NCBI GenBank assembly: GCA_027604185.1
Contig: JADGKB010000176.1
Span: 1 to 21,097, forward strand
Length of the DNA: 21,097 bases
Reading direction: 5' to 3'
Source: Boothiomyces macroporosus
Taxonomy: Eukaryota; Chytridiomycota; Chytridiomycetes; Rhizophydiales; Terramycetaceae
The notes under the pieces were generated by a model. The model was not told the origin of the DNA, searched no databases, and saw nothing but the letters and a program-made list of their open reading frames with translations. The position numbers and the translations under genes are program-made. Shown here one piece after another: positions 165 through 21,097 of the stretch. Position 1 is the stretch's first letter. Every line of letters begins with the position of its first letter.

Positions 165-1986
165 ATGACAGCAAACCAACTGGACTCTTGCTTCAATGCG
201 CTGGATAACGCAGAAACGGACGAAGACATTCTAGTAGCTCTTACAATACTTCCACGAGTGTTGGATCCAACGGATGCTAGCAATGTTAAGAGAGCATTCA
301 GTCATATTCCTTGGAAATTCATACATCGGATGATGATTTCACCAATCACAGACGGATTAATGCAAACAATTGCGGTTAGAATATGGACATGCTTTTGCAC
401 TGAGGAATTCAGCAAGAAGAGCAAGTTGTTGAAGAGAATCAAACCAGCTTCAAAGTTATTAAGATCCTCTCTCGATTTGGAAATCAAAATATTAATAATG
501 CGATCGCTAATTGATCTTTTACAGGAAAGCGTAGCGATTGAATTTTACGACTCAGAAGTATTGGAAAATGTTGGATCTCAAGCAACTGTAATATCAGAGT
601 TATTCTTGCATTTTGCCCAATCGGCTATACTTGTTATGGAGCCTGGTTTGTTTGTCTCCCCGTTATCGCTGCTGCTGTATTCTGATTCGAAATTTAAATT
701 CCGTTCAATCCCAATTCTAATTGCTCTATTTGCGAATCCAAACTTGAATTTAGGCATTGTTAACAAAGGATTACCGATATTAAAATCTTCAATCAAATCT
801 ATCTTGGCCAGCAAGTTGCCAAAAGAAATTACAGAACAAGTACTCGTGTTAATTTCCATCATATCTACCCATTTCAAAGATTTCATCCATCCAAATACCT
901 TCACAGAGCTGGATATTTCTATGCAGGATATGGGAGTCGGAGAAAAGAAATCCCTTTCTGACACACAACTACTATTAATGTGTACGCATTTGATTGGAGC
1001 TGAAGCCAGAGTAATCCTCGACTCTACCACAGAGGATCTCCAAAAAGATGAATTAGAAACTTTGCCACTCTTTTATTCATTCCTTGAAAATATAATCACA
1101 TTCTTGGTGTCCGATGAATGCAAACTTGAAGAATCACTTTTGAAATCAATCCAAAAAGCACTGTTTGAAACTTTTATTTCAATCGCTGCCTTTTTAAGTG
1201 ATAGATGGGTATTTTAAACTAATATTAGGACATGTATCAGGATTCTCAAGATATTAAAGTGTTGGATAATATGGCTACGATGTATTCTATAAAAACGTAC
1301 TCTTACTTTACTGCAGAAGAGAGTTCAGTTTCTACCGAAGAAGTAACCAGATTAGTTCCCCTTGTAGTGTTTCTGTTGGAAAACAAACTAGAGTCTTTAA
1401 ATGAAGATCCGTTGGATGTGCTAGATGGCATTCTCAATATAATTACTGCGGATCCTTTAATACTAGAGGAATTCAACTCATTAGATGGATATATACCGCT
1501 GATTGATAACTTTGTAGATGGAAAATGTAACACGAGAAACGCTATCGGAATATTGATGAACTTTGTTGTATCGTCAAACTTAACATTGCTCTCAGTAGAT
1601 CCTTTGGCCAAATTACAGAATAGATTGGAGGAACTAGTCAAGCAAGCAAATGATTTACCTTTCATGTCAATGATAGTTTTGACATACTTGTTTGTCAGCA
1701 GATCATCGCAAAAACTTTCAGGCACATCTGTACCTATAGATGAAATTGTTGAGTATATTTGCAAGCGCAATCAAATACACGATGAATCAGCTGAATTATG
1801 GTACCTTTGCGTGTCTGGTAAATTCATTCTAACAACAGCTCTATGTGAAATGTCTAATTTTGCTCTAAATGCCTGCCAAAAAGAAAAGTTGAAGAAATTG
1901 CAAGGTAATTTATTGCTGACTTAGAATCACTATCTAATAGCGACGACAGGCAAGTTCTAAACAGTCTAATTCAAAAACATTCATAA
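165..1986 (+). CDS. NCDN: Neurochondrin-like armadillo/HEAT-type protein (3 exons)
   Basis: Exons are 165-1208, 1229-1904 and 1925-1986, giving 593 residues. The introns, 1209-1228 and 1905-1924, are both 20 nt; without them the frame stops at 1217 and 1924. The N-terminal half follows the neurochondrin pattern: an 'AL.NA..D' opening near residue 10, then an alpha-helical stretch with an F-I-H-R motif near residue 53 and a C-F-C motif near residue 76, where the animal protein has 'CFCS'. The whole protein is helix-rich with no membrane segment, as expected of a solenoid. Human neurochondrin is somewhat longer (about 730 residues) and is linked to neurite growth and Rab5 and dynein-related traffic; the fungal role is not known. 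An alternative acceptor at 1240 (32-nt intron) also keeps frame. The stop lies 7 nt from the stop of the convergent AlkB-like gene. Family assignment is by pattern, not by search. Confidence 0.72.
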
Positions 1987-1993
1987 TACATAA

Positions 1994-2818
1994 TTATTGT
2001 TTATTAAGAATTTCGTTTCGTTTTGCTTCATCTTTGGACAAGAATATCGAATTACGTACCAAGCATTCGTCCCAATGAGTAATATCTTCCTCTACTTTCT
2101 TTCTAGTATCCAATAGTTTTCTGATTGTCAACGAAATGCGAATATAATCCATTCCTCGTTTGATACACTGCCCATCTGGGGTTCTAACCCATTGCGCTTT
2201 AGGAATACCATGTCTATATTTGTACCTTGCATCTTCCTTCATGCAAAACAAACTGTTTTCTTCCAAAAAGACTTTGGTTTGGTCTTCATTGCTCGTCAAT
2301 GTCAACCAAACTGGCTTCCCAACAGATATAGTAACAATAGTATCGCCAAATGCGTTTGAATCGTCGAAATGATTTGATATTCCCATTGCTCCAGCATACT
2401 CATTCACCAGTATCTGTGTAACCTCACCCTTTTCAAAAAATCCATCATTCTCCAATCGAGTAATTATTCCTTGAAAGAGCTCTAGATCATAGCACTTGAA
2501 TTCCTCTTCTTCCGTTGGCTGCAAGTCTTTTAAATCACAAGTAGTGTGATAATATCGCTGGCCGTAAAACTGCTGCCTCCGATGAATCAAAGTGGAAAAT
2601 TCTCTGTCGTAGACTGTATCCCAAATGTACTTGGCTTCCTCTGGAGTAACATAATTAGGGATATACTGCATTCCCTTTATTGGCAAGACTGTGGGGTCAG
2701 TGGTGTATATTTGCGCCGGCTCGTAGAAATAAATAGGGAAATCTGGGATGTTGGATGGAATTTCCTTTGGCTGCTCTGACTCTACTGCTGGGAGGCCTTT
2801 TGCCTGTTTAATTCTCAT
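1994..2818 (-). CDS. AlkB-like 2-oxoglutarate/Fe(II) dioxygenase
   Basis: The product is 274 residues. The double-stranded beta-helix signature is complete. An 'NEYAGAMGISNHFDD' stretch (139-153) supplies the first metal ligands H150 and D152. H203 in 'YRHGI' is the likely third ligand. 'RISLTIR' (227-233) is the AlkB-type R-x5-R that binds 2-oxoglutarate and shapes the substrate site. This core is closest by eye to eukaryotic ALKBH8/ALKBH4/6-type enzymes, but there is no RRM before it and no methyltransferase domain after it, so tRNA wobble-uridine hydroxylation cannot be assumed. The substrate (tRNA, other nucleic acid or protein) is unknown. The ATG at 2818 is preceded in frame by a stop. 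A spliced alternative starts at 2859 with a 20-nt intron at 2804-2823 (see findings). Its stop is 7 nt from the stop of the neurochondrin-like gene, so the two mRNAs overlap. Confidence 0.82.
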   Translation of the reverse strand: MRIKQAKGLPAVESEQPKEIPSNIPDFPIYFYEPAQIYTTDPTVLPIKGMQYIPNYVTPEEAKYIWDTVYDREFSTLIHRRQQFYGQRYYHTTCDLKDLQPTEEEEFKCYDLELFQGIITRLENDGFFEKGEVTQILVNEYAGAMGISNHFDDSNAFGDTIVTISVGKPVWLTLTSNEDQTKVFLEENSLFCMKEDARYKYRHGIPKAQWVRTPDGQCIKRGMDYIRISLTIRKLLDTRKKVEEDITHWDECLVRNSIFLSKDEAKRNEILNKQ

Positions 2819-2823
2819 TCAAC

Positions 2824-3074
2824 AAAAGAAATTTTTTCTTGTGAATCACACTTTGTCATTTGAGGCTGGTATGTGGCTACTTTCTTACCTCTATTACAAC
2901 TGTTGATGTTTAACTCTTGAAGATTGATTCTTAAGGTTTTATAAACAGCGACTGTCTGTATTGAGTCTATTTCTATTTCTACCTTGAGCAAGGTTACCAC
3001 CTCAAAGATTCTTGAGATTCCTCTGCGTTACACTACAGAAACCTTTGCATATTGCTCTCTGATTTTTTGTCAGA
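2824..3074. promoter_or_regulatory. Divergent intergenic region, AlkB-like gene and rightward unit
   Basis: About 250 bases lie between the AlkB-like gene and the first ATG of the doubtful small gene. On the minus strand a 61-codon frame (3000-2815) runs into the AlkB-like gene and could be leader or an upstream exon. No RNA gene or strong promoter motif is visible. Confidence 0.3.
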
Positions 3075-3407
3075 ATGGTCGTCTCCTCAAAAAGTCCCAC
3101 GCCAAATCTCGGAGTTATTTTTCGCATCTTGGTGATGGGCAGTGTTCAGACGCTACACGGATATCAGAGCGATTACACTCAATTAAACTCTGTAAAATTG
3201 GTCAGCTTGTTCGCAAGCATTGATTTTCATTCGAGTATGAATTCTGCGACCGTTTTATCTGCTGTATGAGGATTTAGGAACTGTTGTTGTGAGCGGGTCT
3301 CTGTGTTTCCAAAATGGTCACAAGATAAAGAAAAGGAACGGGAGAAAGCCCAAGAAAAATTAGCTCACTACAACACAGCTGCGTATCCAACTGATGAAAA
3401 AAATTGA
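3075..3407 (+). CDS. Doubtful small gene, splice model unresolved
   Basis: From the ATG at 3075, 64 codons are open and then stop at 3267-3269. The same frame reopens and from 3315 to the TGA at 3405-3407 encodes a hydrophilic tail (W-S-Q-D-K-E-K-E-R-E-K, ending T-D-E-K-N) that looks coding. The N-terminal part has an 'SPTPNLG...R.L.MG' pattern and then a short hydrophobic segment, loosely recalling mitochondrial ATP synthase subunit e. That resemblance is weak. The only GTA...AG intron that joins the two parts in frame is 3264-3293 (30 nt), which is longer than every secure intron here and lacks a clear branch site. The region may be a real small gene with a structure I have not solved, or two chance open stretches. 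Nothing between 3408 and 3620 is convincing apart from a 55-codon frame (3417-3584). Confidence 0.25.
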
Positions 3408-3620
3408 TATGCTAGTATGAGAGATGCAATTAGCCTTTTCGGTAAAATTATTTCCTACACATTGACCTTTGATTCCAAATGGCATGTGTTTGTACCACTC
3501 AAAACTGGAATTCGAATTTTAAGGGGCCTTGAGTTTCCAATTTGGGCCCCGTGTCACAAGCGAATGGGGAAAGTGGCAGAATAAAAGGAAGAAAATCCAT
3601 CGCACAAGCCTTCCGATAGA
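3408..3620. promoter_or_regulatory. Upstream region of the giant DUF3712-type gene
   Basis: This 213-base interval precedes the ATG at 3621. It contains an A-rich stretch with an 'aataaaagga' element about 40 bases before the ATG, which could serve as a core promoter element. It also contains a 55-codon open frame (3417-3584) that resembles nothing I know. No RNA gene or repeat was recognised. Confidence 0.3.
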
Positions 3621-6600
3621 ATGTCCAAAGATACTTTGGCAAAAGCTGCAGATTCGCAGTATCAATCTCGTCCTCAAGGACTCTTTAAAACCGTACAAAG
3701 CTGGTACAAGGTACATTGTTATTAAGTCAGCCTGTATATGATTATAAAACTGAAGGTCTTACTCCCGAACAGAGAGCAAGAAACCCTAAATATTTCAATG
3801 GCCGTATGAAGCAATGGGAATTCATTCTCTTACATGTGCTTGTTGTGTTCAATACCATTGCACTAATCATGGTTCCTGTAGCATACTTTTCACTAATCCC
3901 ACAATACTTACAATATAGAATCGACCTGATCGGTACTGATGGAAATGCTGTGAATATCCACAAAGTTGCCATTGGTAAAATGGACAACACCACCATTGAA
4001 TTTGCTGGTACTTTTTTTTAATTGTAGGTGATTTTAGAGTCGATGCTTTGGCTCCTTTCCCTGTCTATGCTGGATTCAGAGGATTCACTGTCAATATTGT
4101 CAATGAAGGAAAAGTATTGGGTCAGATTGACGTCCCTGAAGTTGGCTTCTGGTTGAACAAGGAGGTTATCTTCAACATCACCGGGGCTTTTAGATTTGAC
4201 CAAGAAAATCAACAAAATACTAAGGCTGTAATCTCAAAGTTCTCTAATGGAGGCATTAACGATTTGGCTCTTAGCTTCCAATTTGCTCCAACAATCTTGA
4301 CTTTTGGAATGCCAGCCTACTGGCACTTGCCACTGCATAGAAACGTAGACATTGGTGATGTCGCTGGTACCGCGGCTGGTCTACTTGCAACCGCTCAGTA
4401 TGTTGGACAAAACACCAAATATGTCAATTTTGTTGCTCAACCATTCGACAACTATGCTTCATTGAAAGCTTACTTTGATAACGACATGGATAAAATCACT
4501 CAATTGCCTGCTTCACTGGGCGGACTTGAATTTGTCTGGGACAAATTCTCTGCAAACATTACAGATTCTACATTCTCTATTGGATTTGCAATTGCTTCCG
4601 TCAACTACTCACCATTCGCATTGGAATTGATTGATCAAATTGATTACTATTTGGCTGTTCAGGGAACCAAAATTATGAAAATGTCTTTGCGCAGAATTGG
4701 GTTAAAGGATAACTTCAACTACCTCAACTTTGCCCTCGACTTCACTTTCTTGGATCCAAATCTCGACCCAACCGCCACTCAAGCTGCCCTTGAATCTGCT
4801 TTTGCTTCATTTGCCAGCTCATTCAACTTTAACTTTGCCTTGGTTGGTCCAATCCAGATCAGTGGTGCAGGATTTGTTGAAAACATGACCTCTGATTTGC
4901 AAGTTACTGGATCGCTTAACGACATTGTTGGATTCCTACCGCAATCCATTGTTGCTGCCATTAAAAGTGCTGTTTCTGACCCAACATCCCTTCTTACTCC
5001 TGCAGTGGTTCAAGAAGCAAAGGACATTCTCAAAGACTCTAAAATTTCGTTCCAAGTATTGTCTGATAAATTGGAAGGTATCTTTGGTATCAAATTGGGT
5101 GCTTTGTCCTACATTAAACCACCACAAGAAGTTGACTTCCCATACTCATCTACTGTCAGTATCTATGGTAATGATGTCAAAGCTATCCAATCTGACTTGT
5201 CTGCTATTAGTATCACCCGTGAATCTGATGGTATGAGAATCAGCACCAATGCTACTGTTACTCCTGTTAACACTGACGAAGCTGCTACTGGTCTTGCTGC
5301 TGCTATCAACCCAATTCTCGCTGCAAACCCAAGTGTTGGTACTGTTGGTATCAAAGATTTAGGGTTCTTTACCCCTGGTCAACCAAGATTCAAATGGTGT
5401 GATGCTATTTTCGGTCAACGTATCCTTCATTTGCAAATCCCTGGAATTAACAAGGAGGCACTGATTAATTTGGTCGCCAGCAACAGCACTGGAAAGATTA
5501 TGTCTGCTCTTTCAAACCTGGTTACCGTTGGAAACGTAAACCTGGGCCAATTGACTGATAAGCCTGGTTTCGGTGCCAAAGGTAACGTTCAAGTTGCTTA
5601 CCCTGCTGGGTTCCCACAATTGATTATTGATATTGGCTACTTTAACCTTGCCACTACTGTTGAAGACACCAGTTTGATGACTTTGCAACTTCCAGCTGGT
5701 TTGAAGTTTTATCCACAATCCAGCGGAACTGATATCAACGGTCAGGCTGTAATTGGAAGAGACCCTGCAATTGGATCCAAAGTGCAAAAGTTTGTCAACG
5801 CATTGGTTGCAGATGACAGAACTAAATCCCCATCCTTTGCTGGTGTTACAGGATTAAGCTTTGGTGCATCCCCAACCCAAAACTTTGTCACTTTCTCAAA
5901 GGTTGTTGTTGATGTTCGAACTGATACTATCTTGAACATTTTGCTACCATCAAATTCTTCTACTTCTGATATGATCCAATCTGTTGTAAACATGTTGCCA
6001 GCAAATCTCATCAAAGCAACTGGAGCTGATGTAGCGGTCACCAGTGCAAGCGATGTTGGTTTATCTACTAGCATGAACGTAAACAATCCTTTCAAAATCA
6101 TTGAAATTTCTCTTGGTACTACACAATTGAATGCTTTATTGGGAGCTCAAACTCTTTCTGGAGTCAGCGTCTCTCCGTTGGATATTAAAGGTGGAAACAG
6201 TTCGCTCACTTCCAAGATCGGTTTGACTGTTGCCACTGGAGCTAATGGTCAAGCAAAGAATGTTGCCACGTTGGTTAATGCTGTTCTCGCAAAAGATACT
6301 ACTTCTCAACTGATGGCTGGTGTCACTGGCTTCACTTTGTTACCTCCTGGTGTTACCAGCGGCCCTGCTGTCATTGATCAATTTGCTGGGGTTACCGTCA
6401 ATGTTGCCAGTGGAAAGCTCATCAACCTGGGTTATGAAGTGTACAACTACATTGCTAGCTCCCAAGGAAAAGGTCCAATTGATATCTCTGCTTTGTTGCC
6501 AGACACTACTGATTTGAACAAATTGCTTGGCGAATTCAATCCATCCATCAAGTCTATCCAGTCATCCACTGCTCCAAACCGCGTTTTGAATGCTGGAGCA

Positions 6601-9600
6601 GCTGCATCCTACACTAACCCATTGCCACTCTCTGCCAAGCTTCCATACGTTGCAGTTGATGCAAGTCTTAACGGTGTTTTGTTGGCTACTACCCAAGTTT
6701 CCAACATTGAATTGGACAGAACTTCAGGTAATTTGGATTTAATTTCAGGAACTGCTCAGCCAGCTATTGTATTCAAAGTAAACAAAGCTGATGGTTTGCC
6801 TCAAACTGTTTCTACAACTGTCACCGACTTTTTGAATGGACAGCTCAACACCAAAGTGCAAGTTAGCGGAATTTACTTTGGTACCCCAAATTCCATCAAC
6901 GATTTGCTATCTGAAGTCTCAGTTGTTGTAAATCCACTTGTGCAATCATTTGTTGCTCCTGCTAGTCAGTGGGTCAATACTCAATTGCAAAATATTGGAG
7001 CAACTGTAAATCCATTACAAAAGAGAGATTCTGGCGCATTTATCAGCATCAATGGTCCATTTGGAATTGTTGTCGCTATTAACAGTGTCGACACTACCAT
7101 TTTACCTGGTTCCCAACTAAAGGGTACCATCAACTTGTCCCTCACTTTACCATTCCAAACTGATATCAATATCGGATATACTGCTTTGACTGCTGGGCTC
7201 GATGCTGTTACTGCTGCAACTGTTACAACTGGATTTGCTTTCAAGGGTACCAACCCTACCTTTGACCTTGGCTTCACTGCTGCCGTCAATGATGTTGATG
7301 ATCTTGCCAATAAGGTTGCTGATGTAGTGTCTGCTTTCTTGAAGGAAATTGTCATTCCAGGCTTAGGTGTCGGAGGCAACACCCTCATTGGTGTTTCCAG
7401 CTCTGACAATATCGATGCATTCTCTCAAGTTTCGATTGGGTTATCTCTTGATAAACTTGCTGCTCCACTAAAGTCAATGCTCAACTTTAACACTATTTTG
7501 AACAACATTGCCCAAAACCCAGACCAAGTGTTGGCTCAAGGCCAAGGTCTTGCTAGCAAATTCGGCGTAACTGTGAACGGATTAGGAATTGCTGCTCAAG
7601 CTGGTAGAACTATGCAAGCTTCTGCAAATGCTGGATTCTCCAACAGCTTCCCTATCACCATCAGTGGTTTAGGATACATTGGTTCTGCTGCTGGGCTTGA
7701 TGATACTGTCATTACTGGTATTACTTTGCCTGGCTTTAACATTGGAAAAGGTCAAAACAATGTCAAATTGATCGCCAATGCCCAATTCCCATCTTCTCAA
7801 GCTATCAAGGATAAGGTAAGAGACTTTGGAAATGACCTTACCAACAACTTTGGAAATACTGCTGCAAACTTTGTTGTAAGCCAAGTTGCATTTGGTGTCA
7901 GTCAAGCCGATCATTTCAAGTTTATGAGCAAAGTAGTCATCCCAATTCCATCAAAGGTTCTCTTGAACTCTAATACGCTTGCTCTTGCAACCAAACTTGC
8001 CAAACCTTTGCTTAGCAATCTTGATATCACCAAAATGGTATCCAACCCTTCTGCCGATGTCGAATTCACTCAGGATAAACATATTTTGGCTAACCTTGGT
8101 GCTGGTCTTGCTCTTCCGCTTGCCGTCAGTGTTGACATTCCATATTCACAGTTCGGTGCTGATGTTAACGCTGCTCCTGGATTTGAAATTCAAGTTCAGA
8201 ACTTTAAACTTGCCGGAAATGCAAATGCTACTCAACAGCTAAACATTGCTACAACCACCGCTGTAGATGACACTGTTACTCTTGCCAACAACATTGCTGC
8301 ACTTACTAACGCTCTCTTACATGGTTTACCACTGCCTGGTACTATTGGTGGAGGAAGATTGAGCTTTGGTGTCAGTTCAACTGATTGTGTTGACTCGTTC
8401 TCTGAATTGGCTGTTGGTGTAAAGCTTTCCCCAACTTTCGACTCTCTAGTCAATGATGCCAAGAACTATGCCGCAGGTCTCAACTATACTGCAATTTTAG
8501 GTCAACTTAACGTCAAGCTGGGTGCAATCAATGTTGCAGCCAAGGCAGGAAAGACTATTTCTTCTTCAATTGCTGCTGGATTTGCCAACCCGCTTGCATT
8601 AACTGTTAAAGGATTGAACTATGTTTCTGCTAATGCTGGTATCGATGCTCTCACTGTCACTACTCTCAAGTCCTCTGGTATTTCTCTTTCCAAGGCTACC
8701 AACAACTTGAACCTGGAAGCTGATTTGATCTTCAACTCTGATCCAGTTGTCATTGACGCTGTTGGTAGATTTGCCGACGATCTCACCAACAAGTTTGGAC
8801 ACACCGACCAATTCTTTACTGCGGGTGGAGCAACTTTTGGGTTTAGCCAAGACAGTGCTTTCAAGTTTTTGAGCCAGTCTATTTTAGGGTTCAATTCCTC
8901 AATTTTGCTGAACCAAAACAATCTTGATTATGCTTTGAAATTAGTTGCTGGATCTGGTTTGAACGCTACTACTGCTCTGGGTCTGGTTAAGCCAAAAGCT
9001 TTGGATGTCCAATTCAACCCATCTAATGTTATTAACACTGGAATCAAGGCTGACTTGACTGTTCCTTACCAAATTTCTGCCAACATGCCATATTTCTCTG
9101 CTGACGGATTCTTGAATGGACTGAAATTGGCAAATCTTGCAGTCGATGGATTCAGCGTGTCTGGGCAATCAACCAACTCTCTTAACTTGGCTTCTTTAGT
9201 TGCCTTATTTGATAGCAATGACCTCGAAGTCGCTGTTGCCAACCTTGTTGATGCTGCAATTGCTGACATTAAAAATATTCCGGGAACTGTAGGCGGAGGA
9301 GATTTGTACTTTGGTTTGGATTCATCCGCCGCAAACGTGATTGACACATTCTCCAAAGTTAAGTTGGGAATTGCCATCAAATCAATTACCGATATTGTGT
9401 TGCCATTACTTCCAAACTTGTCAAACATTGATCCTATCGCCTTGATCAAGTCATTCAACCCTACCTTGGAGAACTTGCAGGCAAAGACTATGCCGGGTAA
9501 GATTTTGGCATCTTCCTTCACTGCTGGATTCAACAGCTCCTTCCCAATCTCTGTTAAAGGTCTTGGATTCATGGGTGCTGCCGCTGGTGTTGACCCACTG

Positions 9601-12058
9601 CCAATTATGCAAATCACTGCAAGCGGCTTCTCTGTCAACCCTGGAGTAAACAGCTTGCAATTGGCTACTCAAATCTTTTTCCCATCTGCTCCGCAAATTC
9701 CTCCTGCTGTTGGTGCATTCGTTAACGATGTTATCAAGAACTTTGGAAACACTCAAGAAAAGTTCTTGGCTACTGGTATTGCTTTCGGGTTTGATCAAGA
9801 CCACAGCTTCAATTTGCTAAAACAAACCAAGCTCAAGATTCCTACCACTTGGATTTTGAACCAAAAGAACCTGGACTTGGTTATGCAATACGTTGGTACA
9901 ATCGACCCAGCTGCCATTTTGAAGAACGTTTCCCCAACCAAAGCACACCTTTCTGCTGTTCAAAGTGGTGAAATCATTGCAGACATTGCAGGTTCAGTCA
10001 GCAACGTCAACCTCACTGCTCAAGCCCAAATTGGATATGTCGAAACTAGTGCCTTGATTGACGGCAATCAGTAAGTTTTGTTTAACCTTTAGATTAGTAG
10101 GATTGAAGATCCCAAGTGGTTTGAACATTGCAACAAAAGACAACACTATCTCATTGGCACTAGTAAACAGCTTGTTATTCAGTAATGACCCACAAGTCCA
10201 AGCCTCTGTTAACACTTTGATTAATGGTGTATTGAACAATGCAACTTTAACCAACACTGTTGGAGCTGGTGGATTCAAATTTGGTTCCGATAACTCTGCT
10301 GCCAATATTATCGATACTTTCTCACAAACATCAATCTCTCTTCCAGTCTCCAAATTCCAAGGACAAATTAATGCATTGATTCAATATGCTATCAACATGG
10401 TCCAAAATATCCTTAGCGGAAAATCTGATCCAAACGGTCCATTCTCCAAGGTTGCAGTTTCTATCAAGGGAGTTGATATTGATGTATTTGATGAAACTAC
10501 TCTTGACATTAAAGCTAGCGCTGGAATCACTGGATTGCCATTTGACTTTGCTCTTGACATGCCTTATGTTTACACTTCAGTCAAGTACAATGATGCCGAT
10601 TTCCTTCAGAATGCTGTATTGGATACCAAGTTTGCTGACGGAGTTTTCTCTGCTCATGTATTGCCAAAGATGCCTATTAACAGAGATGCTGCTCAGCGTG
10701 TCATGACTATCCTAGGTAATACTTTGCTCCACAGACATGATCCAATTCTTGACACTGTCACCATTGAAAAGCTTGGATTTGGGTTCTCCTCTGCTGTACA
10801 TGTTGAGACCTTTGAAGCGTTCTCGTACAAGACTGCTATCACTAAACCGGTTGCAAGTATTGTGGACTACTTTGATCAAAAGAGACCATTCGAATTGCAC
10901 AACATCCAAGCTCAATTGAACATGGATGGTGTTGATGTCGCAGTTAACTTTACTGTTCCTCCACTTCCATTGAACTTGCTTGCTTCTGCCACTGCTGGAG
11001 TTACATACCTAAAAGATGGTAAGCCAACTGTCCAAGTCTGTAAGGTGCCAATTACTGGTGTTCAATTGCCAATCGTCAACATTATCCTTGTACCTGAACT
11101 TATTCCTGATGGTACTGGCGAAGGGTTCGTTTTGGCTATCCCACCACTTCTTACTTGGAACGATTTCTCTGGTAACGCTCAATTAGGATACACATCTCTT
11201 ACTGGAACTAACGGAAAGGTCTTTGATAGTCTTTCACAAGCATGGTTTGAAGCTCCTTCCCTTTACCTCTGGTCTCCACTTGTAATCAACGTTGTACCAA
11301 CTTGGCCGTGGGATCCTTCTCACTGGAATGACATTGTTGTGCCAATTGAAGTTAAGCTTGCTTTCCTTAACGATGGGCCATTCCATCTTGATGTTGGCCA
11401 TCTTGTTATTAACATCAATGACAAGAAAGCAAACAGAGCTCTCTTGACTCTTGAAACCAAAGACAACCTCGTGATTATCAACAACCTTGAAGGTGGTAAT
11501 GTTCAATCTATGGCAGGTCCTCCAACGATGGGTATCTTTAGAGCACTTATTCCGTTCTCTGACTTTAACCCTATCAACTTTATCACTTTGATTACCCACT
11601 TGATTGAAAGTCCAACTGATACCTTTGGTGTTGATATTTCTCTGTACAGAAATGGCCAAGAGCTTCCATACTTCAAGCCTATTCTCAATGAAATCATTGC
11701 TAGTGGTGCATTGGCACAACTGGTACCATTTATTGGTGTAATCTTGAAGCACGTTCAATTGGCTGTTTTGGGTGTGAACTTGAACACCCTTCCTGTCGTT
11801 GGACCTTTGTTGAACTCTGCTGAAGATTGGCTTGGTAAATTCATTGGAAAGATTACCCACCACAAGAGAGATACTATTGGTGCTGGCAACTCCACCATCA
11901 GTGGAAACTCTACTGCTCCTGCAACTAACAGCAGTGCTTCCTCTGCTGCTGAATCTGCAGCCATTGCAAACAACATTTCCGTTGTTCCTATTCCGGGCAG
12001 CTTACCAAAATCTGCGACAGTATTCACCTCTCCAAACTTGATTATCCAAGGTTTCTAA
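3621..12058 (+). CDS. Giant DUF3712/Tag1-like type II membrane protein (4 exons)
   Basis: Exons are 3621-3710, 3731-4007, 4028-10070 and 10093-12058, giving 2791 residues. The introns are 20, 20 and 22 nt, and each join restores frame. Residues 1-58 form a short, charged, probably cytosolic tail. Residues 60-83 (W-E-F-I-L-L-H-V...) are a single membrane helix acting as signal anchor. The remaining 2700 residues would face the lumen or the outside. They are low in Cys, rich in Asn/Gly/Ala/Thr/Ser, and carry many N-x-S/T sites. They form a tandem series of beta-rich units of about 157-180 residues marked by a recurring 'G..FG.s.....F..' core. This fits fungal DUF3712 proteins, which are classed with vacuolar Tag1-like proteins and LEA14/WHy-like sandwiches. 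Dibasic K-R-D sites occur at residues 1121-1122 and 2728-2729, the second before a Ser/Thr/Asn-rich tail. The function is unknown; Tag1 of yeast has been linked to ending autophagy. Most relatives are much shorter. Confidence 0.82.
5800..10860 (+). repeat. Tandem protein repeat, pitch about 160 aa (about 480 nt)
   Basis: Within the giant gene the short core 'xFGxSx...FS' recurs with its Phe-Gly near nt 5850, 6330 (variant), 6870, 7380 (variant), 7890, 8360, 8832, 9310, 9784, 10280 and 10777. In the last six or seven units, two alternating types make a dimeric repeat of about 315-325 residues. One type has 'FGNT...FGFSQD..F' (residues about 1395, 1710, 2026, and weakly 2351). The other has 'PGT(I/V)GGG..(S/Y)FG' (about 1231, 1558, 1873, 2191). 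Copies are diverged at the protein level. Weaker copies probably extend upstream to about residue 290. Confidence 0.7.
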
Positions 12059-12289: not shown

Positions 12290-13579
12290 ATGTCGACAGA
12301 GATTGAAAACTTGCAGACGTACTTGCTGGATACATTACTGGAGCACCAGAGATACCTGGACCTTACTTCAGAGCACCTGGATGATTTTGCCGAGCTAATC
12401 ACTGATCAATCCCTCCTCAAGCGGTTCATAAAGAAATACAAGGATATCCCTACTGTGCAGGACAAGTTAATTGAGCATTTCGATTGGAGAATCAATCACA
12501 ACATTGCCGGAATGAACTATTCGACAGTCGGCAATATCGTTTTGCAATACATGACTGACGGTATATTCAGATTCCACAAGTTTGATCTCAAAGGCAGACC
12601 TGTATGCTACATTCTTCCAAAGTTTTTCAAAAAGGAAAACGGAATCGAGGGGTTGAAGAGTACTGTTATTTACGCTCTGGAAATATTGCGAAGATGGACT
12701 TGCGGGAACGATAATTTTCAAGTTCTGATTGTGATGGATCTGGAGGATTTTGGTTTGATTCAAATGGTATTAATAGACTAAAAAGGATTATGAATCTGTG
12801 CCGCTTATTTATGAAATATTCCGAAACCACTATCCGCAGTTGGTTGGGCAAGCGATTGTCTTGAATTATGGATGGATACATGCAGGAATATGGAATTTCA
12901 TTAGGCCGATATTATCCGCCGAGGCCAGAGACAAACTGGTGTTTGTTGGTGCTGAAAAATTGATAGATTACATTCCTATAGAAAATATTCCAACATGTAA
13001 ATTATTACTCATTCAGATTATGGCGGATTAGATTCCTCATACCCAGTAAAACCAGAAGTTTGCCCCATAATACAAGCATATGGAGGACTGGTTAAAGGAC
13101 AGAAAACTGCAGAACAAAAGTATATCAGAGATGCGCTAAGAAGAAATTTACATCAGATTCCAAACAGCCCATATATAAACAGTCCATACATGCTGGATGG
13201 AGATTTATATTACGATGCAGTCACGAAACCAATACATGCGAAATCAGCAGCAGATTTGCAATCGCTCTTGCATACACAAGCCAAGTTTACTGGTGGTGGA
13301 TTCGGAAGAACTCTAAGCTCTACTTCTTTAAGCACCCTAACAAAACGTAAATCAATGGTTGGCCTATCTAGCATACGAATGACACCTAGTAGCTCTACAA
13401 AATCGCATTATGATGTACCTCTTGGTGACGATGATCCAAAGAAACGGAAAAAGAGGGATATAGTTCTAAGATTCCTACAATGGTACCCTAAAAAATGGAC
13501 TGGGCTGATACTGATTGTTTTATTTGTGTTATTTTTTGGACGTACATTGTTCAATAAAATACGGGCGCTCGCCTACTGA
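12290..13579 (+). CDS. CRAL-TRIO (Sec14-like) lipid-binding protein with C-terminal membrane anchor (3 exons)
   Basis: Exons are 12290-12766, 12786-12996 and 13017-13579, giving 416 residues. The introns are 19 and 20 nt; both joins restore family motifs. An N-terminal helical part (residues 35-75, 'LLKRFIKKY...EHFDWRINH') matches CRAL-TRIO-N, where Sec14 proteins have 'LLRFLRAR...L.WR'. The lipid-binding fold follows (about 95-235): 'FDLKGRPV', 'VLIVMDLEDFGL', 'IYEIFRNHYPQLVG', 'KLVFVG', and the closing 'IPTYYGG' (about 227-233), which is created by the second splice. A Ser/Thr-rich, positively charged linker follows, then 'DDDPKKRKKRD' and a hydrophobic helix (about 390-409) seven residues from the end, as in tail-anchored proteins. 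It probably moves or senses lipids or phosphoinositides at an ER or endosomal membrane; the ligand is unknown. There is no MSP domain, unlike animal MOSPD2. The last 7 nt of the coding region overlap the convergent mutarotase gene. Confidence 0.87.
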
Positions 13580-14606
13580 TTGTCTTTACTAAACTTGTAA
13601 GTGATAGAGTTGATTTGCTTTTCACCCTTTTTCAAGATTACTTTATCACGAAACTGGGGCATATTGATTGAATTTGGTGGATAGCTTGGTTCAATACAGA
13701 AACCTGCATATGGCTGGTACTTGTTATGAACTCTTTTAGCCTTCAAGGATTCGTCCAACCAATTTCCAGTGTAAAATTGGAACCCCGGGTAAGAAAAGGT
13801 TGCTTGTAGTTGTATTCTTGTTCTTGGGCAAGTTACTTTGATGCTTTTACCAAAGTAGTAATGGTCATAGCCTCTAAACTCTTTGACAGATGGCAGTTTA
13901 TCTCCTATTTTTTGGTTTTTCAGAAACATTTCTGGTCTATCTCTTTCAGTCAACAATTCTCCAGTCGGAATTTGGTTTTCATCCATCTTCATCACACTTG
14001 TAACGTCCATATCAACTACATGTTCAGCAACTGTTGGCGATGCAAATCCAGATAAATTAAAGTATGGATGAACAGTAACGTTTGCACAGCTTTCTTGGGC
14101 ATCAACTACTTGCGCTTCAGTAGTAAATTGCAGTTCCATATTCTCTAGTGTCCAACTGCACTTGAAAGTGACTGTTCCGGGATATCCGTCGTCTGTCATT
14201 AGTGATGGATACCTAAATCGTTGGAGGCATACTCAAACTCCACCTGTGGTGGTTCTTGCGAGATGATTTGGTAGTTCCAATAAACTTTTGATAATCCTTT
14301 CAACCCACCATGAAGACTGTTTGGTCCGTTATTGATTGGAAGCTGGTATTCTTTCCCACCCAATGAAAACCGCCCGTTCTTGGTTCTATTGCATAACCTA
14401 CCAATTATTTGTCCAAAGTAGGGAGAATTCAAGTCTGGATAATCCAAAGGATCGTCAAATCCCAGACAAACTTCAACGCCGTCGACCATTAATGAGCTCA
14501 TGGTGATTCCATAATTAAGAAACTTTGCTTTGACTCTTCCTTGCTCCATTGTGATTTCAGTCATTGCCAAGGAGCCGTTCTTGTATTCCTGCACCGAGAT
14601 TGTCAT
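13573..14606 (-). CDS. GALM: Aldose 1-epimerase (galactose mutarotase) (2 exons)
   Basis: Exons are 14606-14213 and 14192-13573 on the minus strand, giving 337 residues, the usual length. The 20-nt intron (14212-14193) has a CTAAT branch-like element. Its removal joins 'ASNDL' to 'DDGYPG', the family's 'DGxxGYPG' segment. Residues expected in the active site are present: H99 in 'NSLHGG', H173 in 'HPYFNLSG', D241 in 'YDHYY' and E299 in 'FCIEPSYPP'. The last is the usual catalytic base; H173 is the likely acid. The enzyme interconverts alpha and beta anomers of galactose or glucose in the cytosol, feeding the Leloir pathway or hexose metabolism. There is no signal peptide and no fused epimerase domain such as yeast Gal10 has. 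It shares a 105-nt divergent region with the CEP164-like gene, and its stop codon lies inside the last codons of the CRAL-TRIO gene. Confidence 0.93.
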
Positions 14607-14711
14607 TGGAAAAAGCTAAACCAATGTTACACAGGAAAACTGGTTTTAATAAGGTTATTATTTTTGGTTGGCACGAGTTTGCAAAATCTGTTGTCGCGTT
14701 GTTTGTTGACG
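14607..14711. promoter_or_regulatory. Shared 105-nt divergent promoter region (mutarotase / CEP164-like)
   Basis: Only 105 bases separate the two start codons, so both 5' leaders and promoters must lie here or reach into the genes. A CCAAT pentamer occurs at 14621-14625, with AT-rich sequence at 14645-14670. I looked for an RFX X-box-like palindrome, common before ciliary genes in animals, and did not see one. Confidence 0.45.
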
Positions 14712-17635
14712 ATGAGCAAAGTACTAGAGGAAGAGTAACCGCCAACTAACAATAGCTACGATGAAGACTATGAACCCACCACTGAAGGTAATTGATGTAC
14801 TGACATTAAGAAATCGAGGAATATGCCCAGTTTTTAGGGATGAACCCAAAGACTGAAAAACACTTGTTGTGGATAGCGAGAGAATCCCTAAAAGCAAAGC
14901 TGCCGCCTGATTGGAAGCCTTGGTACGCTTCGTTAATCTAGTCAAACTGACGATGGAAATATTTACTATTTCAACTTTAAAACGGGTGAAAGTAGCTGGG
15001 ATCACCCGTGCGATGAATATTACAAGCAGTTATACAACCGCATACGGAAGGAAGGTGATCCAAAGGGTGATATAAGGCGAAGCGAAGAGCAAAAAAGAAA
15101 GGCTGCTGCATCAGTTAAACCAACAAGTTTATCCAGCCCGATGGCACCAAGAATTCCTGACACAAAGTCTAGCGAATCAGCGAGCTCTAGATCGCCAACC
15201 AGGCCAGAAACAAAGAAATCTCCACCCAAAATCATGCAGAAAATTGATTCAATCGACGAGTTTGAGCTATCGGATTCCAGTGGCGAACAGAAAGTCAAAG
15301 CTGTCTTGAAGCCCTTGGACGCACCAAAAACCTTACCTTCTTTGAAAATGTCAAGTATTCCAAAGCTAGAAACCAAGCCAGTGCTGGACGATGTCGATGA
15401 TTTTGACTCTGATGAACCATTACCTCAAAAACCAGTATCAAAGCAAAGTGCCATCGGTAGTTTGAAGAGCCCAGTAGAGAAAAAGACTGTTGATGAAGGG
15501 TCTTTAAGTTTCTTGAATGCGTCTGTCCACAGTGGTGCCAAATCAATGTCGCATGATGTTAAACCCCAGGTGGAACAAAAACCTGCAGCAGTTACTAGTA
15601 TTCACTCCAAAGGATCTTCAAAAGTAGATGATATCAAAGCATTTGATTCTTCTTCGGAGAGCAGCAATAGAATAGGAGATCTAAAGCCATCACTGGCTCC
15701 AATTCACAAAAAAGAGGTCAAGTCGTCAGATTTCCCAATGATGGATAATCCATTAACTATGGGGCAAGATGCCAAAGCAAAGATTGATTTAGAACAAGAA
15801 AAAATGAAGAAGGAATACGAAGAAAAGAAGCTGCAGGAACTATTGGCATTCGAAAAAGATCAGCAAAGAAAATTAGAGCAAAAAAAGGCAGACTTGATTG
15901 CCCAATATAGTAGAAAGTTGGATCATCTCCAAGATGAGCAAGACTTGGACTTTGCCAAAAGGCAGTCGGAAGTCTTAAACAACTTCAAGGTCAAATTCAA
16001 CAGTTTTTCATCAAAGTACAACCTGCTTTTTGATTCCATTATTGATGAATTAATCAACGCTCCTGTTACTTTTACAATAGATCACTGTGACATTAAATTG
16101 CAGCCTGTTCAAACTGAATATGCATCAGCTGATAAATTGATTCATGAATTACAGACCAATTTTGCTACTCTGGTTAAATTGAAATATTCCCAAACTGTCG
16201 AGCGATTAAAAGAAAAGACTAAAGCGGTATTGAATGAATTTGAATCAAATGAAATGAAAAATTTGGAATCTGCCAAGGAAAAGAAAAGGCAAGCAGCTTT
16301 ATCTGCAGTGAATCAATCAAATGATTTGAAGATATACAGATGTCTATTGGCAAACGATGGAAGTGACGGATTCTTGGCAAACAGTAATATGAAACTAATA
16401 TTAGATGAAGGAGATCTCATACTATGCGAAAGCGATATTGTTTCAAGTGCCTTTACCGGATACAATCTGCAAACACGAAAGGAAGGAAAAGTGGCAATGA
16501 ATGTTGTAGAGGTGTTTGACTTTAAGCAGGAAGCTAGAGAAAATGCTCAAAAGCAAATCAAGCAAGACAAGGAAAAAGATTTACAAGTGCAACTGGCATT
16601 TGAAGACCGAAAATTCCAAGAAAAGAAGCACGAGTATTCATTGAAATATTCTGAATTAGAAAGAGAGTATCAAGATAAATTAAAGCGCTATGATCAAGAC
16701 GTGTTAGATTTACAAAAAGAGCAAGTGGAAAAATACAATGCAACAAAGGAAATGTGGGATAGGAGATTACACGACTTGGAAGTGTCTTTTCAAGAAAAAC
16801 TACAAGAAATGGAAAAGGCCCAAGAGCAAGCAAAGGCTGAAATTGATGAAGTCAAGGCAAAAAAGACTCCCAAATTTGAAGCTGCAAACTTATCTTTGTA
16901 CAAGGACGAGTATTCGCATTCCTACTACAAAGGCAAACCTCTGTTGTCTTTTACTGCTGATGATTTTGATCTGACTAATGACAAGCATTTAGATTTTTCA
17001 TCTTCATCGTCGCTTTCAGAGTTTGAGCAGCTTAATAGTATTTTGAAACTGGAAGGTAAAAGAATAATGAAAGCAAAAGATTATTTAAACAATCAAAAGC
17101 AAGATATTGCAAATGTAATAGCCGCTGCTGGTTTCGATGATGGGTATAGTCACAAAGCAGGATTGGGAATAAAGATGACTGAACATCAGCCAAATGTCAT
17201 CAACATCAATACTCCCATGCAGTCTTCACCAGTAGTCAGACCAGAAATGCAGTACCCTGATATCAATCTTAATCTTCATGGATCCCACAGTCCAGTATAC
17301 AGCCCAATCAGAGAACAGACACACATCCCGCCTGCTCAAAAGTACCAACTAATTAACCTAGTCTGAAAACTTTTGCTGATATTGATTCACGAGTAGAAAA
17401 GCAAAACACTTACTTGCAGCAAATTGAAGATGAATTGAACCAGCTCACACAAGTCCTGAAACAAAAGGCAGCGCCTTTACAATCAACCACTAGATTCAAG
17501 TCTTACGCAAACTCTAGCTCCAGATATCGAAGAGGCACAGAGAGCACATGGAAGAAAGAACAGAAGCGAACAGAAGCGGTGGTAAATGAACACCAAGACT
17601 GGCTAAACCAACTACCAAACAAACTAATCCTTTAA
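14712..17635 (+). CDS. CEP164: CEP164-like centriolar distal-appendage protein: WW domain plus coiled coils (5 exons)
   Basis: Exons are 14712-14734, 14756-14787, 14811-14922, 14942-17341 and 17362-17635, giving 946 residues. The introns are 21, 23, 19 and 20 nt. After splicing, the N terminus reads '[17 protein letters not shown]' then '[16 protein letters not shown]' and '[11 protein letters not shown]', a near match to the CEP164 N-terminal region including its WW domain (about residues 51-86). The splices themselves create the D of 'EEDYD' and the C of 'WKPC'. In animals this region recruits TTBK2 and the protein docks centrioles to the membrane for ciliogenesis. A long Ser/Lys/Asp-rich disordered part follows (about 95-330), then coiled coils (about 337-410 and 590-700) and a short C-terminal coil (about 858-892). 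Residues about 520-584 look like an SH3-type domain. Human CEP164 is longer (1460 residues). The stop is 1 nt from the stop of the convergent 121-residue gene. Confidence 0.9.
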
Positions 17636-17641
17636 TTTATT
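17636..17641 (-). terminator. Candidate poly(A) signal overlapping a stop codon (minus strand)
   Basis: On the minus strand AATAAA overlaps the TAA stop of the 121-residue gene. If used, cleavage would occur inside the last exon of the CEP164-like gene, giving overlapping antisense 3' ends. Confidence 0.3.
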
Positions 17642-18002
17642 TATCCCTATTAATTTGCTTTAATATATTTCCTAATCTCCGCTTGGCATTTTCATACAAT
17701 TCATTACTCTCTTTCTTTTCTTCCTTCTTTTCCGCCATATCCCATTTATATTCACTCCGGCTACCGATAGAATCCAATATCTGATAGCTAGCTTCTTCCA
17801 AACTGTACAAATTATCAACATTAACTGCGCTTATCTGTAGTGCAGGAGCAGTTTTATTTTTCTGACTGGTGAATTTCGTTTCCAGAATTGATGATTGAGA
17901 TAGGAATTCTTGGATATCTTGGTTTTCAACTTGCTTACTTGACTGGTGGAATTGAGCTGATTCATGTATTTTGGAGCCAATATTGTGATTTGAATTTTTC
18001 AT
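17637..18002 (-). CDS. Unrecognised small hydrophilic protein, 121 residues
   Basis: A single exon from the ATG at 18002 to the TAA at 17639-17637. I do not recognise the family. The N-terminal half is polar and Gln/Ser-rich. The centre has 'ISAVNVDNLYSLEEASYQIL' (about 58-77). The C-terminal third is highly charged and helical, with 'AEKKEEKKESNELYENAKRRL' and 'ILKQINRDK', compatible with a short coiled coil. There is no signal peptide or membrane segment. Placement tail-to-tail with the CEP164-like gene and head-to-head with the RUN-domain gene leaves exactly this space, which supports a real gene. The size and helical C terminus would suit a small coiled-coil subunit of a larger complex, but this is a guess. 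An extra upstream exon is possible: another minus-strand frame is open at 18162-17962. Confidence 0.6.
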   Translation of the reverse strand: MKNSNHNIGSKIHESAQFHQSSKQVENQDIQEFLSQSSILETKFTSQKNKTAPALQISAVNVDNLYSLEEASYQILDSIGSRSEYKWDMAEKKEEKKESNELYENAKRRLGNILKQINRDK

Positions 18003-18281
18003 TTGAAACTTTTTTCACTGATTTTTGGAGATGATTCTCACATGTCAGGAAATATTTTCCAGCGAGAACCGAGAAGAGATGGAACATACCAGAGAGTGAT
18101 TGGGATTTATTTCCCGTGAATGTTTCCGCTACCCGCATTATTTCCCGAGTTGGGATATGCAATATCTACCACCAATAATTCATTTGAAAGTAGATTTCAT
18201 ATCTGTGGGCATTCGTACTCTACCAGGAATGCAGTCGGATATGCCAGATCTGTCTGTGGGAATTTTGTTTTCCAAAAAATT
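18003..18281. promoter_or_regulatory. Divergent intergenic region (121-aa gene / RUN-domain gene)
   Basis: These 279 bases separate the two start codons. The frame of the RUN-domain gene is open here from an upstream ATG at 18120, so part could be coding. A GTAC...GCAG segment of 20 nt near 18210-18230 resembles an intron but has no branch-like element and does not keep the frame. Confidence 0.35.
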
Positions 18282-19140
18282 ATGAATCACCATGAAAGTC
18301 TCTATCTGAATTTCAGACAATCAATAAGCAACCTGATTGACCGCATAACCACAGACCAAGATTACACGCTTCAGCTGCAATCATTTACATTTTCCTTGGA
18401 ACAAATATTATCCCATGGATTCATTGAACCGATTTCGTTTCTCAAGAAACGCACTTTGTGGGAATTCATATCGCAAATGAAAGACGAACTGATTGAAATC
18501 GTTTCAAATATGTCTGATAGCGATGCGACCAAAGTACAAATTTTCATAAAGATGTGTTTGATGCGATCTGTATTAGCAACCCACCTCAACTATTTATACT
18601 CTCTGGACAATTTAAAAGACTGGTAACAAAGTATAATATCAGGTATGATGAATCCGCGTTTATGCGCAATCCTGATATGCGGTCTGCAGTACTTGGGTTA
18701 TTGGACGGCTTAAACAAACTCGAATTCAATATATTCATTAAAGAGGAGCCTAGAAAACTAAAGCCAATGAAATCTATTACTGATTTTGGAACAAATTTGT
18801 TCAAGAGTGGAGATTACCTTGTCAAATCTGGGATCAGTGTTGGAATGAACGTATTGGACAAGGTGCAGACACAAGTAAAAGAAACAGGTACACTTTGCTA
18901 ATCATAGCCCATGCAGGTGCTAGCTACCTTCATAAAGATAAAGATCCACAGATTGAAAAGTTGGAGCAATCTATTCTTGAACTGATTCAAGAAAAAGCAA
19001 AGATGACCAAAGATTACGAGGATCTGCAAAAGCAAAAGATGCAGCTAGAAGTAGAAATGATTGGGCTCAAAATGTCCCGCGATAAGGAAGTCCAAGGGCT
19101 CAGAAACGAAATAGCCAAATTACAAAAGCAAAGTTCTTAA
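18282..19140 (+). CDS. RUN-domain protein with C-terminal coiled coil (3 exons)
   Basis: Exons are 18282-18622, 18643-18887 and 18908-19140, giving 272 residues; both introns are 20 nt. The N-terminal half is a RUN domain (about 25-145): 'LEQILSHGF', 'LWEFISQM', 'FIKMCLMRSVLATHLNYL', then 'LKDWYDESAFMRN' and 'AVLGLLDGLNKLEFNIFI'. The first intron splits the codon of the conserved Trp in 'DWY', and its removal rebuilds that motif. Residues about 208-270 form a heptad-type coiled coil ('IEKLEQSILELIQEKAKM...'), giving RUFY-like architecture without a FYVE finger. RUN proteins bind small GTPases of the Rap, Rab and Arl8 type and link vesicles to motors, so a role in endosome or lysosome traffic is likely. 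I chose the ATG at 18282, close to the domain. An in-frame ATG at 18120 would add 54 residues of unconvincing sequence. The stop is 28 nt from that of the convergent SulP gene. Confidence 0.8.
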
Positions 19141-19153
19141 TATACGTTCATAT

Positions 19154-19159
19154 TTTATT
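19154..19159 (-). terminator. Candidate poly(A) signal of the SulP gene
   Basis: AATAAA on the minus strand lies 9 bases after the SulP stop, within the 28-nt gap between two convergent genes. It would send the SulP 3' end into the RUN-domain gene. Confidence 0.4.
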
Positions 19160-19168
19160 ATACACAAG

Positions 19169-21097
19169 TTAGATTTCAGGTTGCACACTGGTATGATTTT
19201 CTTCAATTGTTGCTGCCTGCACCGCTTGATCAATGGTTCGGAATATAAACTGTTTGGCAAACGCGGTTTGGTTACCGTATTTTTCTAGGCGGTCTTGCTC
19301 AATGACTCTGCTAGACCTTACTACATTAAAATCTGGGTTTTCAGCATTTGCTACCACTGGAGTGATTTCATGATTTGGCTTTAGGAGGTTGATAAAGTAG
19401 ACCAGGATATGTTCAAAGTGTGGGCGAACATGAGCAAAATAGAATGGAACCCTTTTACCAGCGTAATTCTCCACATCCTTTCTAATGTCTACCAAAGTTT
19501 GTAAGCCAGTAGCATCAATGTTGTTTACTGCCGAGAAATCAAAGATGACAGCTTCCAATACTGGTAAATCTTTCGAAGTAGAATCCCATACACCTTCAGC
19601 ATCAAGCTTGACTCTTGGTTCTGATTCGCACCACAGTCTTTCCACCGTGTCTTTGCCGTTGTACTTTGTGTGTTTTTGGATTTCAGCATTCACATAGTTT
19701 GTGATGTAGTTTGCATTTGGATATGTAAGCGCCTCTTCGATTCTGAATACCAAAATACCAGGTGGTGGCGGAGAAGCCTTGACTTCATCATCATCTTGCT
19801 TCAAGGTTTCAAACCCAGTCCATCCACCAGCACTATCTCTAACCAAAGTATATGCATTTGGGCGAGCAACTCGGTACAGAACAACCAACAATGCAAATAG
19901 CACACTCGTATAAATTGCTACTTCTATGGAAAAGAATATAGTAATGACAAAAGCAATGACAAAAGAGAGGAAGTCGTAAAACTCGATATTCCAGAGTTCC
20001 ACAAGCAAGGCTGGACGACTTATAAGATCAGTGATCGCGCCAATAATAATTGCAGACAAGGCAGCACTAGGAATATAGTAAAATGCAGGTGTGATGATAT
20101 AGATGGCTAATAGTACAATCAGAGCAGTAACAAGGCCAGCTGCTGGAGTTTTCACCCCTGACCTTGATTTGATTGATGAACGAGAGAATGACCCAGTTGC
20201 AGCAAAACCGCCAAAGAATGGACCAAGCAAATTGGTTACACCCAGTGCAATGATTTCTTGGTTGGCATCTGCACGATATCCATTCAACCTTCCAAATGAC
20301 TTTGTAACAGCGACGTGTTCCAGGACACTAACGAGTAGTACCGATACAGCAGTTGGAGCGATACTACTGAAATGGGAGAGATCGGGAACATGGATATAAT
20401 TCAATCCAGTTGGAACTGTGCCAACAACATTGAAATTTGGTTTGGAATGATGTGAATTTACTGCCCAACTGATCAGTGTAAATAAGACTATGGTAATGGC
20501 ATTTGCAGAATGGCCAATCCAAATTGCGGATTTGTACCCCTTCTTCACTAACAGAAATGTGATTATCCGGAATATTACTAGCAATGCTAAAGTAGACAGC
20601 CCAATGACAATATCAAAGTTGATGTTGTTAAAGGCCGACACGGTGTTGTAAAGTACTAGATAAGCAGCATCGTTGGTGTTGATGTTTGGAATTCCAAACA
20701 ATCCTGCTATCTGTCCAATAATAATCTGAATAGCTGCGCCAGAAGTGAATCCAGCAATGACTGGGACTGGAATGAGATCGACAATGATTCCGAGTCTCAA
20801 GAACCCTATCACCAGTTGGTATATTCCGGTAATAAATGCCAAAGTAACCGAATAGGAGACAATGTCAATCCCCAGTCCTTTGGCATTTGCTGCAAGGAGT
20901 TGACCAGATAGTTGAGACAGTACAGCAGTTGGGCCAATAGTCACATCCTTGGAAGTGGCAAATAGAAAGTAGAGCACTACACCGACAAAGGAAGTGTATA
21001 ACCCATGTTGAAGAGGAACGCCAGCAAGCTTGGCATAGGCAAGGGACTTGAATTAGCGATAACATACCTGCGGTATAACCAACATCCCGACTGTAAC
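19169..21097 (-). CDS. SulP-family (SLC26-like) sulfate/anion transporter with STAS domain, 5' end outside the window
   Basis: Visible exons on the minus strand are 21097-21068 and 21046-19169, with a 21-nt intron between (21067-21047) that contains an in-frame stop. The join gives 'VTVGMLVIPQ' followed by 'SLAYAKLAGVPLQHGLYTSF', the SulP signature of the first membrane helices. About 635 residues are seen; the N-terminal tail and part of helix 1 are cut off at the edge. About ten further hydrophobic helices follow, with 'TSKDVTIGPTAVLS', 'PVPVIAGFTSGAA' and 'GSFSRSSIKSRSGVKTPAAG', all typical of SulP. A cytosolic STAS domain ends the protein ('AVIFDFSAVNNIDATGLQTL', coded near 19510-19560). 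It should carry sulfate or a related anion across the plasma or vacuolar membrane with protons. The exact substrate cannot be read from sequence. The stop is 28 nt from the RUN-domain gene's stop. Confidence 0.93.

Follow-up and report, generated by a model that had tools for sequence, protein, structure and literature searches.

The window described here is a stretch of 21,097 nucleotides (nt) from the chytrid fungus Boothiomyces macroporosus (Chytridiomycota, Rhizophydiales, Terramycetaceae; contig JADGKB010000176.1, positions 1 to 21,097), whose protein-coding genes are interrupted by introns of only 19-23 nt. We conclude, with a probability of about 95%, that they belong to the U2-type GT-AG class of spliceosomal introns and are fixed close to the minimal size throughout the B. 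macroporosus genome. They follow one plan, which leaves hardly any bases over and consists of a GTAATT donor, a YTAAY branch motif with its A 14-15 (to 16) nt from the donor and a 5-6 (to 7) nt tail that runs to the AG. An earlier reading of the same DNA, made from the letters alone (hereafter, the sequence-only reading), had proposed that fifteen segments of the window are uniform ultrashort spliceosomal introns; the frame test and the spacing patterns presented below bear this out and extend the property to the whole genome.

Length class and internal spacing across the genome

The genome examined comprised 15,203,306 bases in 216 contigs; an 18S search by primer gave no match. The sample used for gene modelling combined the window with twenty-six 10-kb stretches taken from contigs C1-C13 (281,097 bases in total). 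In the frame test, a coding-triplet gene model connected reading frames over GT..AG, with all join lengths weighted equally (flat length preference). The GT-AG joins piled up at 19-21 nt, and no such pile was seen for three control dinucleotide pairs. At 19-23 nt, 118 of 230 flat-length GT-AG joins were found, compared with 15, 15, 12, 15 and 14 joins for five control dinucleotide pairs, by which chance occurrence of GT..AG was rejected as a source of the class. No length bin above 24 nt exceeded the control pairs in the flat test of the sample.

When trained site models were combined with the flat length preference, 231 joins resulted; 146 had lengths of 17-24 nt, and the 85 that exceeded 24 nt formed no peak. 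A model favouring 17-26 nt produced 315 joins, 283 of them at 18-26 nt (276 of these at 19-23 nt), the longer ones being a single join of 29 nt and 31 joins of 40-300 nt. Joins longer than 26 nt fell from 83 (flat preference, trained sites) to 32 once short introns were favoured. Under a strict score, five of these 32 start like a short intron, five end like one and none does both, so a skipped exon flanked by two short introns can account for few of them; at least some modelled chains resemble fused neighbouring genes (by eye, e.g., C7 + 10788). The claim that every secure intron is 19-23 nt long matches the population, although longer introns may occur at low frequency. Nearly all short introns in ATG-started chains (264/269) either shift the frame (205) or carry an in-frame stop (59). 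Two rough estimates, both scaled from the short-favouring model, put the intron total at ~15,300 (from density) or ~17,000 (from pattern matches).

The internal anatomy of the introns was compared with that of decoys. Of 145 introns selected without a splice-site model, 130 were scored and 15 received no branch call, whereas among 2,104 exonic GT..AG decoys of 19-22 nt only 591 were scored and 1,513 received no call. The branch A lay 14-16 nt from the donor in 112/130 introns versus 138/591 decoys, mostly at 14-15 nt, and the tail measured 5-7 nt in 114/130 introns versus 158/591 decoys, mostly 5-6 nt. A branch A in a YTRAY-like element was called in 271 of 282 modelled introns, the acceptor side of this count belonging to the model itself. 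The whole genome was also searched, with no gene model, for GTAA-N(7,8)-TAAY-N(2,3)-AG, which gave 6,289 matches versus 747 in a reversed control; widening the first spacer to N(12,13) gave 311 matches versus 787, i.e., fewer than the control. Of the 119 pattern matches that fell in the sample, 92 coincided with modelled introns. Both the sample and the whole-genome patterns therefore describe one narrow length class with nearly fixed distances from branch to intron end.

The donor consensus of the 282 modelled introns, GTAATT, has A at +3 in 93%, A at +4 in 60% and T at +6 in 59% of cases; at +5, T is commonest (47%) and G makes up only 13%. In the window, +5 is G in three introns and T in five. 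At position -3, 91% of the modelled introns have a pyrimidine (C or T). Since few bases are free between the branch A and the AG, a classical pyrimidine tract cannot fit there. A GT donor and an AG acceptor are present in 15/15 window introns; elsewhere they are required by the model.

Introns of the window and support at their joins

All fifteen segments named by the sequence-only reading were found at the coordinates and with the lengths that it gave, each starting with GTA and ending with AG, and their excision restores frame in every case, leaving single open frames for seven genes. Two introns are 19 nt long, nine 20 nt, two 21 nt, one 22 nt and one 23 nt. They are given below with the support at each join (a slash marks the join), followed by a doubtful sixteenth candidate.

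1209..1228, + strand: 20-nt intron, neurochondrin-like gene; frame, and P0002 of Boothiomyces sp. JEL0866 retains DRWDMYQ across the join
1905..1924, + strand: 20-nt intron, neurochondrin-like gene; frame, and P0002 continues past the join with a less clear alignment
3711..3730, + strand: 20-nt intron, 2,791-amino-acid protein; frame alone
4008..4027, + strand: 20-nt intron, 2,791-amino-acid protein; frame alone
10071..10092, + strand: 22-nt intron, 2,791-amino-acid protein; frame alone
12767..12785, + strand: 19-nt intron, CRAL-TRIO gene; gap-free against Csr1 (7wvt) across M/DYE
12997..13016, + strand: 20-nt intron, CRAL-TRIO gene; gap-free against Csr1 across IPTYYGG
14193..14212, - strand: 20-nt intron, mutarotase gene; gap-free against aldose 1-epimerase (1snz) across DDGYPG
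14735..14755, + strand: 21-nt intron, CEP164-like gene; gap-free against CEP164 (7nwj), ungapped join in 13/13 homologues
14788..14810, + strand: 23-nt intron, CEP164-like gene; gap-free against CEP164 (7nwj), ungapped join in 13/13 homologues
14923..14941, + strand: 19-nt intron, CEP164-like gene; WKPC/QT, gap-free against 7nwj, ungapped in 13/13 homologues
17342..17361, + strand: 20-nt intron, CEP164-like gene; frame, and deposited model P0004 excises the identical segment
18623..18642, + strand: 20-nt intron, RUN-domain gene; RUN match (residues 89-199) spans the DW/Y join
18888..18907, + strand: 20-nt intron, RUN-domain gene; frame alone
21047..21067, - strand: 21-nt intron, SLC26-type sulfate transporter gene; gap-free against 9nf7 across IPQ/SLAYA
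6728..6748, + strand: doubtful candidate, 21 nt, intron-like; gene model only, in frame and stop-free inside the 2,791-amino-acid frame

Residue-level support from relatives is available for nine of the fifteen joins (two in the neurochondrin-like gene, one in the mutarotase gene, three in the CEP164-like gene, two in the CRAL-TRIO gene and one in the SLC26-type gene). The first RUN intron has domain-level support, since the domain match runs on unbroken across it. Our reading and the deposited model P0004 agree on the fourth CEP164 intron, where other relatives align poorly. The remaining four joins, three in the 2,791-amino-acid protein and the second in the RUN gene, depend on frame alone.

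Alignment of the joins to solved structures is a test independent of fungal gene models. The spliced start of the CEP164-like protein, read from the ATG at 14712, aligned with human CEP164 (7nwj) over 87 residues with zero gaps, crossing three joins. This region is present in 13 of 14 aligned homologues, and all of these align without a break at the three joins; a two-residue insertion in P0030 lies away from them. Both CRAL-TRIO joins were gap-free against yeast Csr1. The sequence-only reading had pointed to conserved motifs rebuilt by splicing, and three of these, WKPC in CEP164, YYGG in CRAL-TRIO and DDGYPG in mutarotase, lie at joins that are gap-free against a solved structure, while the fourth, DWY in RUN, sits within the continuous domain match. 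In the neurochondrin-like protein (593 amino acids), P0002 keeps, by eye, the residues flanking both joins, the second less clearly.

The branch-like element that had been described near the intron ends is also present. In 14 window introns, a simple scorer left 4-7 nt after the candidate branch A; in the fifteenth it left 9 nt, and a second motif inside that intron would give a 5-nt tail. The gene model with short introns favoured recovered 13 of the 15; it failed to find 1905-1924, put the end of 12767-12785 in the wrong place and added 6728-6748, a stretch that may be exon, a retained intron or an optional intron.

Two genes outside the window provided further joins. The MCM7 gene (contig C8) contains one back-to-back intron pair and six further modelled short introns, and was aligned with 16 homologues chosen among 120 listed, ~10 residues being considered on each side of a join. 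The join of the pair was gap-free in 15/15 rows and those of introns 5-8 in 13/15, 16/16, 15/16 and 16/16 rows, respectively; introns 3 and 4 adjoin alignment gaps, and 0/15 rows were strictly gap-free there. In a dynamin gene (contig C4) with seven short introns, five joins were, by our own reading, gap-free against DNM1L; of the other two, one lies near gaps and one outside the alignment.

As regards the window genes themselves, the SLC26-type transporter gene continues beyond the contig end. A Pfam search of the two long frames of the 2,791-amino-acid protein (3621-12058) returned no match; by eye, a membrane-like segment can be made out close to the protein start, and there are apparent internal repeats.

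Spliceosome parts and back-to-back units

The sequence-only reading had called for inspection of U1, U2 and U2AF/SF1, and all of them were matched in the genome, U1 and U2AF-large at scores under their family cut-offs. The U1 candidate has the 5' end AUACUUACCUG, a standard pairing stretch. Two U2 genes with GUAGUA (L009 and L010) scored 142.2 and 135.4 bits, U6 was matched above its cut-off (62.2 bits) and SF1 clearly (114.6 bits). The match of the U2AF-large-like gene is interrupted by stops, as introns would give. Judged by these matches, the core recognition system looks conventional. The two U2 RNA genes have diverged from each other. Although the 5' end of U1 is standard, few donors have G at +5.

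The spliceosome would excise these segments from RNA. U1 would cover about +1 to +6 of the donor, and U2 would pair at about 9 to 16. The 14-15 nt ruler may be the closest side-by-side fit of the U1:donor and U2:branch pairings, and the tail may be the shortest workable reach from the branch A to the AG. Recognition would then proceed by intron definition, with length itself acting as a signal, in which case the +5 G of the donor would be free to decay. If the U1/U2 fit also imposes an upper size limit, back-to-back compounds are to be expected.

Such compounds were found. A 43-nt stretch of the MCM7 gene (L026 = C8:20001-30000, local 89-131) reads as two units, of 21 and 22 nt, that directly adjoin without an intervening exon; donor, branch and AG are present in both, and excision of the 43 nt is clean. 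A modelled gene on the minus strand of contig C6 has three consecutive 19-nt units (19+19+19). By eye, the units at both loci are complete, so the stwintron arrangement, in which an outer signal is interrupted by an inner intron, is not seen. In sequence, the arrangement is that of a ratchet point, with AG/GT juxtaposed such that a donor would be regenerated.

We consider it an even chance that introns in this genome are quantised, i.e., that the spliceosome takes only a single unit of about 19-22 nt and that longer introns persist only as whole units in tandem, excised stepwise, with the following donor restored at every cut. If so, intron size would evolve by gain or loss of whole units, without gradual growth. 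The back-to-back units offer a direct test of whether the spliceosome here has a maximum size limit besides a minimum. Alternatively, the compounds may be single introns of ~38-60 nt in which the inner AG/GT arose by chance or decay, a reading that we hold to be possible though on balance doubtful. In its favour, stepwise removal cannot be read from sequence alone, and gene context was read at only two tandem loci, those in MCM7 and on C6. It fits poorly with the whole-genome counts, as a strict tandem pattern had 33 matches versus 0 when reversed and a version with a 3-nt spacer 6 versus 1; with the sample, where three adjacent intron pairs were found and shuffles averaged 0.4; and with the lack of a ~40-nt single-intron class above the controls, which favours unit-by-unit splicing. 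Fewer than one chance tandem case is expected by a hand estimate from exon base frequencies. Among the 33 matches, two resemble one duplicated stretch of contig C20, and another two, on C8, overlap to form a triple. Matches were also seen to repeat at a constant offset (45,067 on C20; 53,656 on C10), which indicates large within-contig duplications in the assembly, real or assembly-made.

Alternative explanations and known short-intron systems

The deposited gene models place some intron ends elsewhere, and the introns could accordingly be real but longer. The neurochondrin-like model P0001 uses a later AG at the first intron (32 nt by our own reading) and then reads into the second intron, ending GNLLLT; the CEP164 model P0004 passes from MSK to LYNRI through a join of ~310 nt that skips the WW region. 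These longer joins were rejected since conserved residues are lost at them: P0001 lacks MYQD, though P0002 has the matching MYQE, and P0004 lacks a WW region that is present in 13/13 other homologues aligned. As no length class above 24 nt rises over the controls either, we regard longer introns as very improbable. Deposited protein sets thus lose exons at such introns, as with the WW region of the CEP164 model. P0004 excises the fourth CEP164 intron correctly, so the deposited annotation does capture part of the short introns. The MCM7 record P0125 of Terramyces sp. JEL0728 (584 amino acids) starts ~141 residues in, and its missing N terminus hints at the same annotation problem in a relative; together with a gap in Terramyces P0003, the late start is a hint that close relatives share the trait.

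An origin in assembly errors or in frameshifts of pseudogenes is barely conceivable for these segments, given a common donor, branch and acceptor at fixed spacing genome-wide, exact joins in conserved genes such as MCM7 and CEP164, and control pairs without a peak. Two turns of RNA leave little space for a spliceosome, which might speak for removal by a non-spliceosomal route. Being present in genomic contigs, the segments are not eliminated from the sequenced DNA, and the GT..YTAAY..AG anatomy, the standard pairing stretches of U1 and U2 and the matches to U6, SF1 and U2AF-large make such a route equally hard to credit.

Several points weigh against the reading as ultrashort spliceosomal introns. 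The U1 score of 68.8 bits is just under the family cut-off of 69.5, and in the U1 search, run at a loose E of 1, three prokaryote controls also matched, none above the cut-off. The best piece of the U2AF-large-like gene scored 230.7 bits, below the single-match cut-off of 310.3 bits, and two prokaryote controls matched in that search, neither above the cut-off. The rarity of +5 G implies U1 pairing weaker than usual. The 32 joins above 26 nt that persist in the short-favouring model are partly unexplained. Because the trained model favours 17-26 nt, the length distribution was judged from flat runs only, and some of these use a coding model trained on genes of the site-model run. Finally, the neurochondrin label is weak, Pfam giving a match for the first exon and none for the full-length protein.

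The spliceosomal reading places B. macroporosus beside a small number of known systems, compared here through parts of the published accounts. In the portions of the open-licence PMC literature covered, no prior report of such introns was found for this chytrid family. In a study of 644 fungal genomes, in the part consulted, the mean of 63 bp found for Cryptococcus neoformans is described as relatively short (PMC8476143). Uniform introns of ~20 nt or shorter were previously described, as far as these sources go, in ciliates, the relic nucleus of an alga and reduced parasites among the Rhizaria: 15-16 nt in heterotrich ciliates, 18-21 nt in the chlorarachniophyte nucleomorph and 16-17 nt in mikrocytids (PMC10245619). 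The comparison set of the sequence-only reading, nucleomorphs and Stentor, was apt but incomplete, since the mikrocytids belong to it too (PMC10245619). Perhaps ~15,000 such introns in a 15-Mb chytrid genome would mean that introns of this kind require neither an extremely reduced genome nor the biology of a ciliate, and would provide a fungal system for asking what fixes the minimum donor-to-branch distance.

The excerpts on Stentor coeruleus describe the closest likeness, namely uniform, AU-rich GU-AG introns of 15-16 nt with a near-fixed branch, a 5-nt tail and standard U1/U2 pairing; there, however, the branch A is at 10 or 11, versus mostly 14-15 in the chytrid, the organism is a ciliate and not a fungus, and 8,806 introns are annotated versus our estimate of ~15,000-17,000 (PMC9505925). 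The chlorarachniophyte nucleomorph shares a near-equal length range and a narrow spread, but is a relic endosymbiont with >800 introns in ~300 genes, compared with a 15.2-Mb fungal genome (PMC10245619). Mikrocytid introns are likewise narrow in length and conserved in sequence, but the organism, Mikrocytos mackini, is a reduced rhizarian parasite with 224 predicted introns (PMC10245619). Paramecium and Nyctotherus have short introns throughout, of ~25 nt and in another lineage (PMC5014332).

The two-part ruler, the rare +5 G and the back-to-back units are features of the chytrid that go beyond the sequence-only reading. The back-to-back units resemble, in the accounts available in part, the stwintrons of filamentous fungi, where two successive excisions occur, but in stwintrons one intron splits the signal of another, whereas the chytrid units each carry a full signal set. 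They also resemble Drosophila ratchet points in the juxtaposition of acceptor and donor around an apparent zero-nucleotide exon; ratchet points, however, lie in long introns and require a cryptic exon, whereas a chytrid compound measures ~38-60 nt (PMC8605326).

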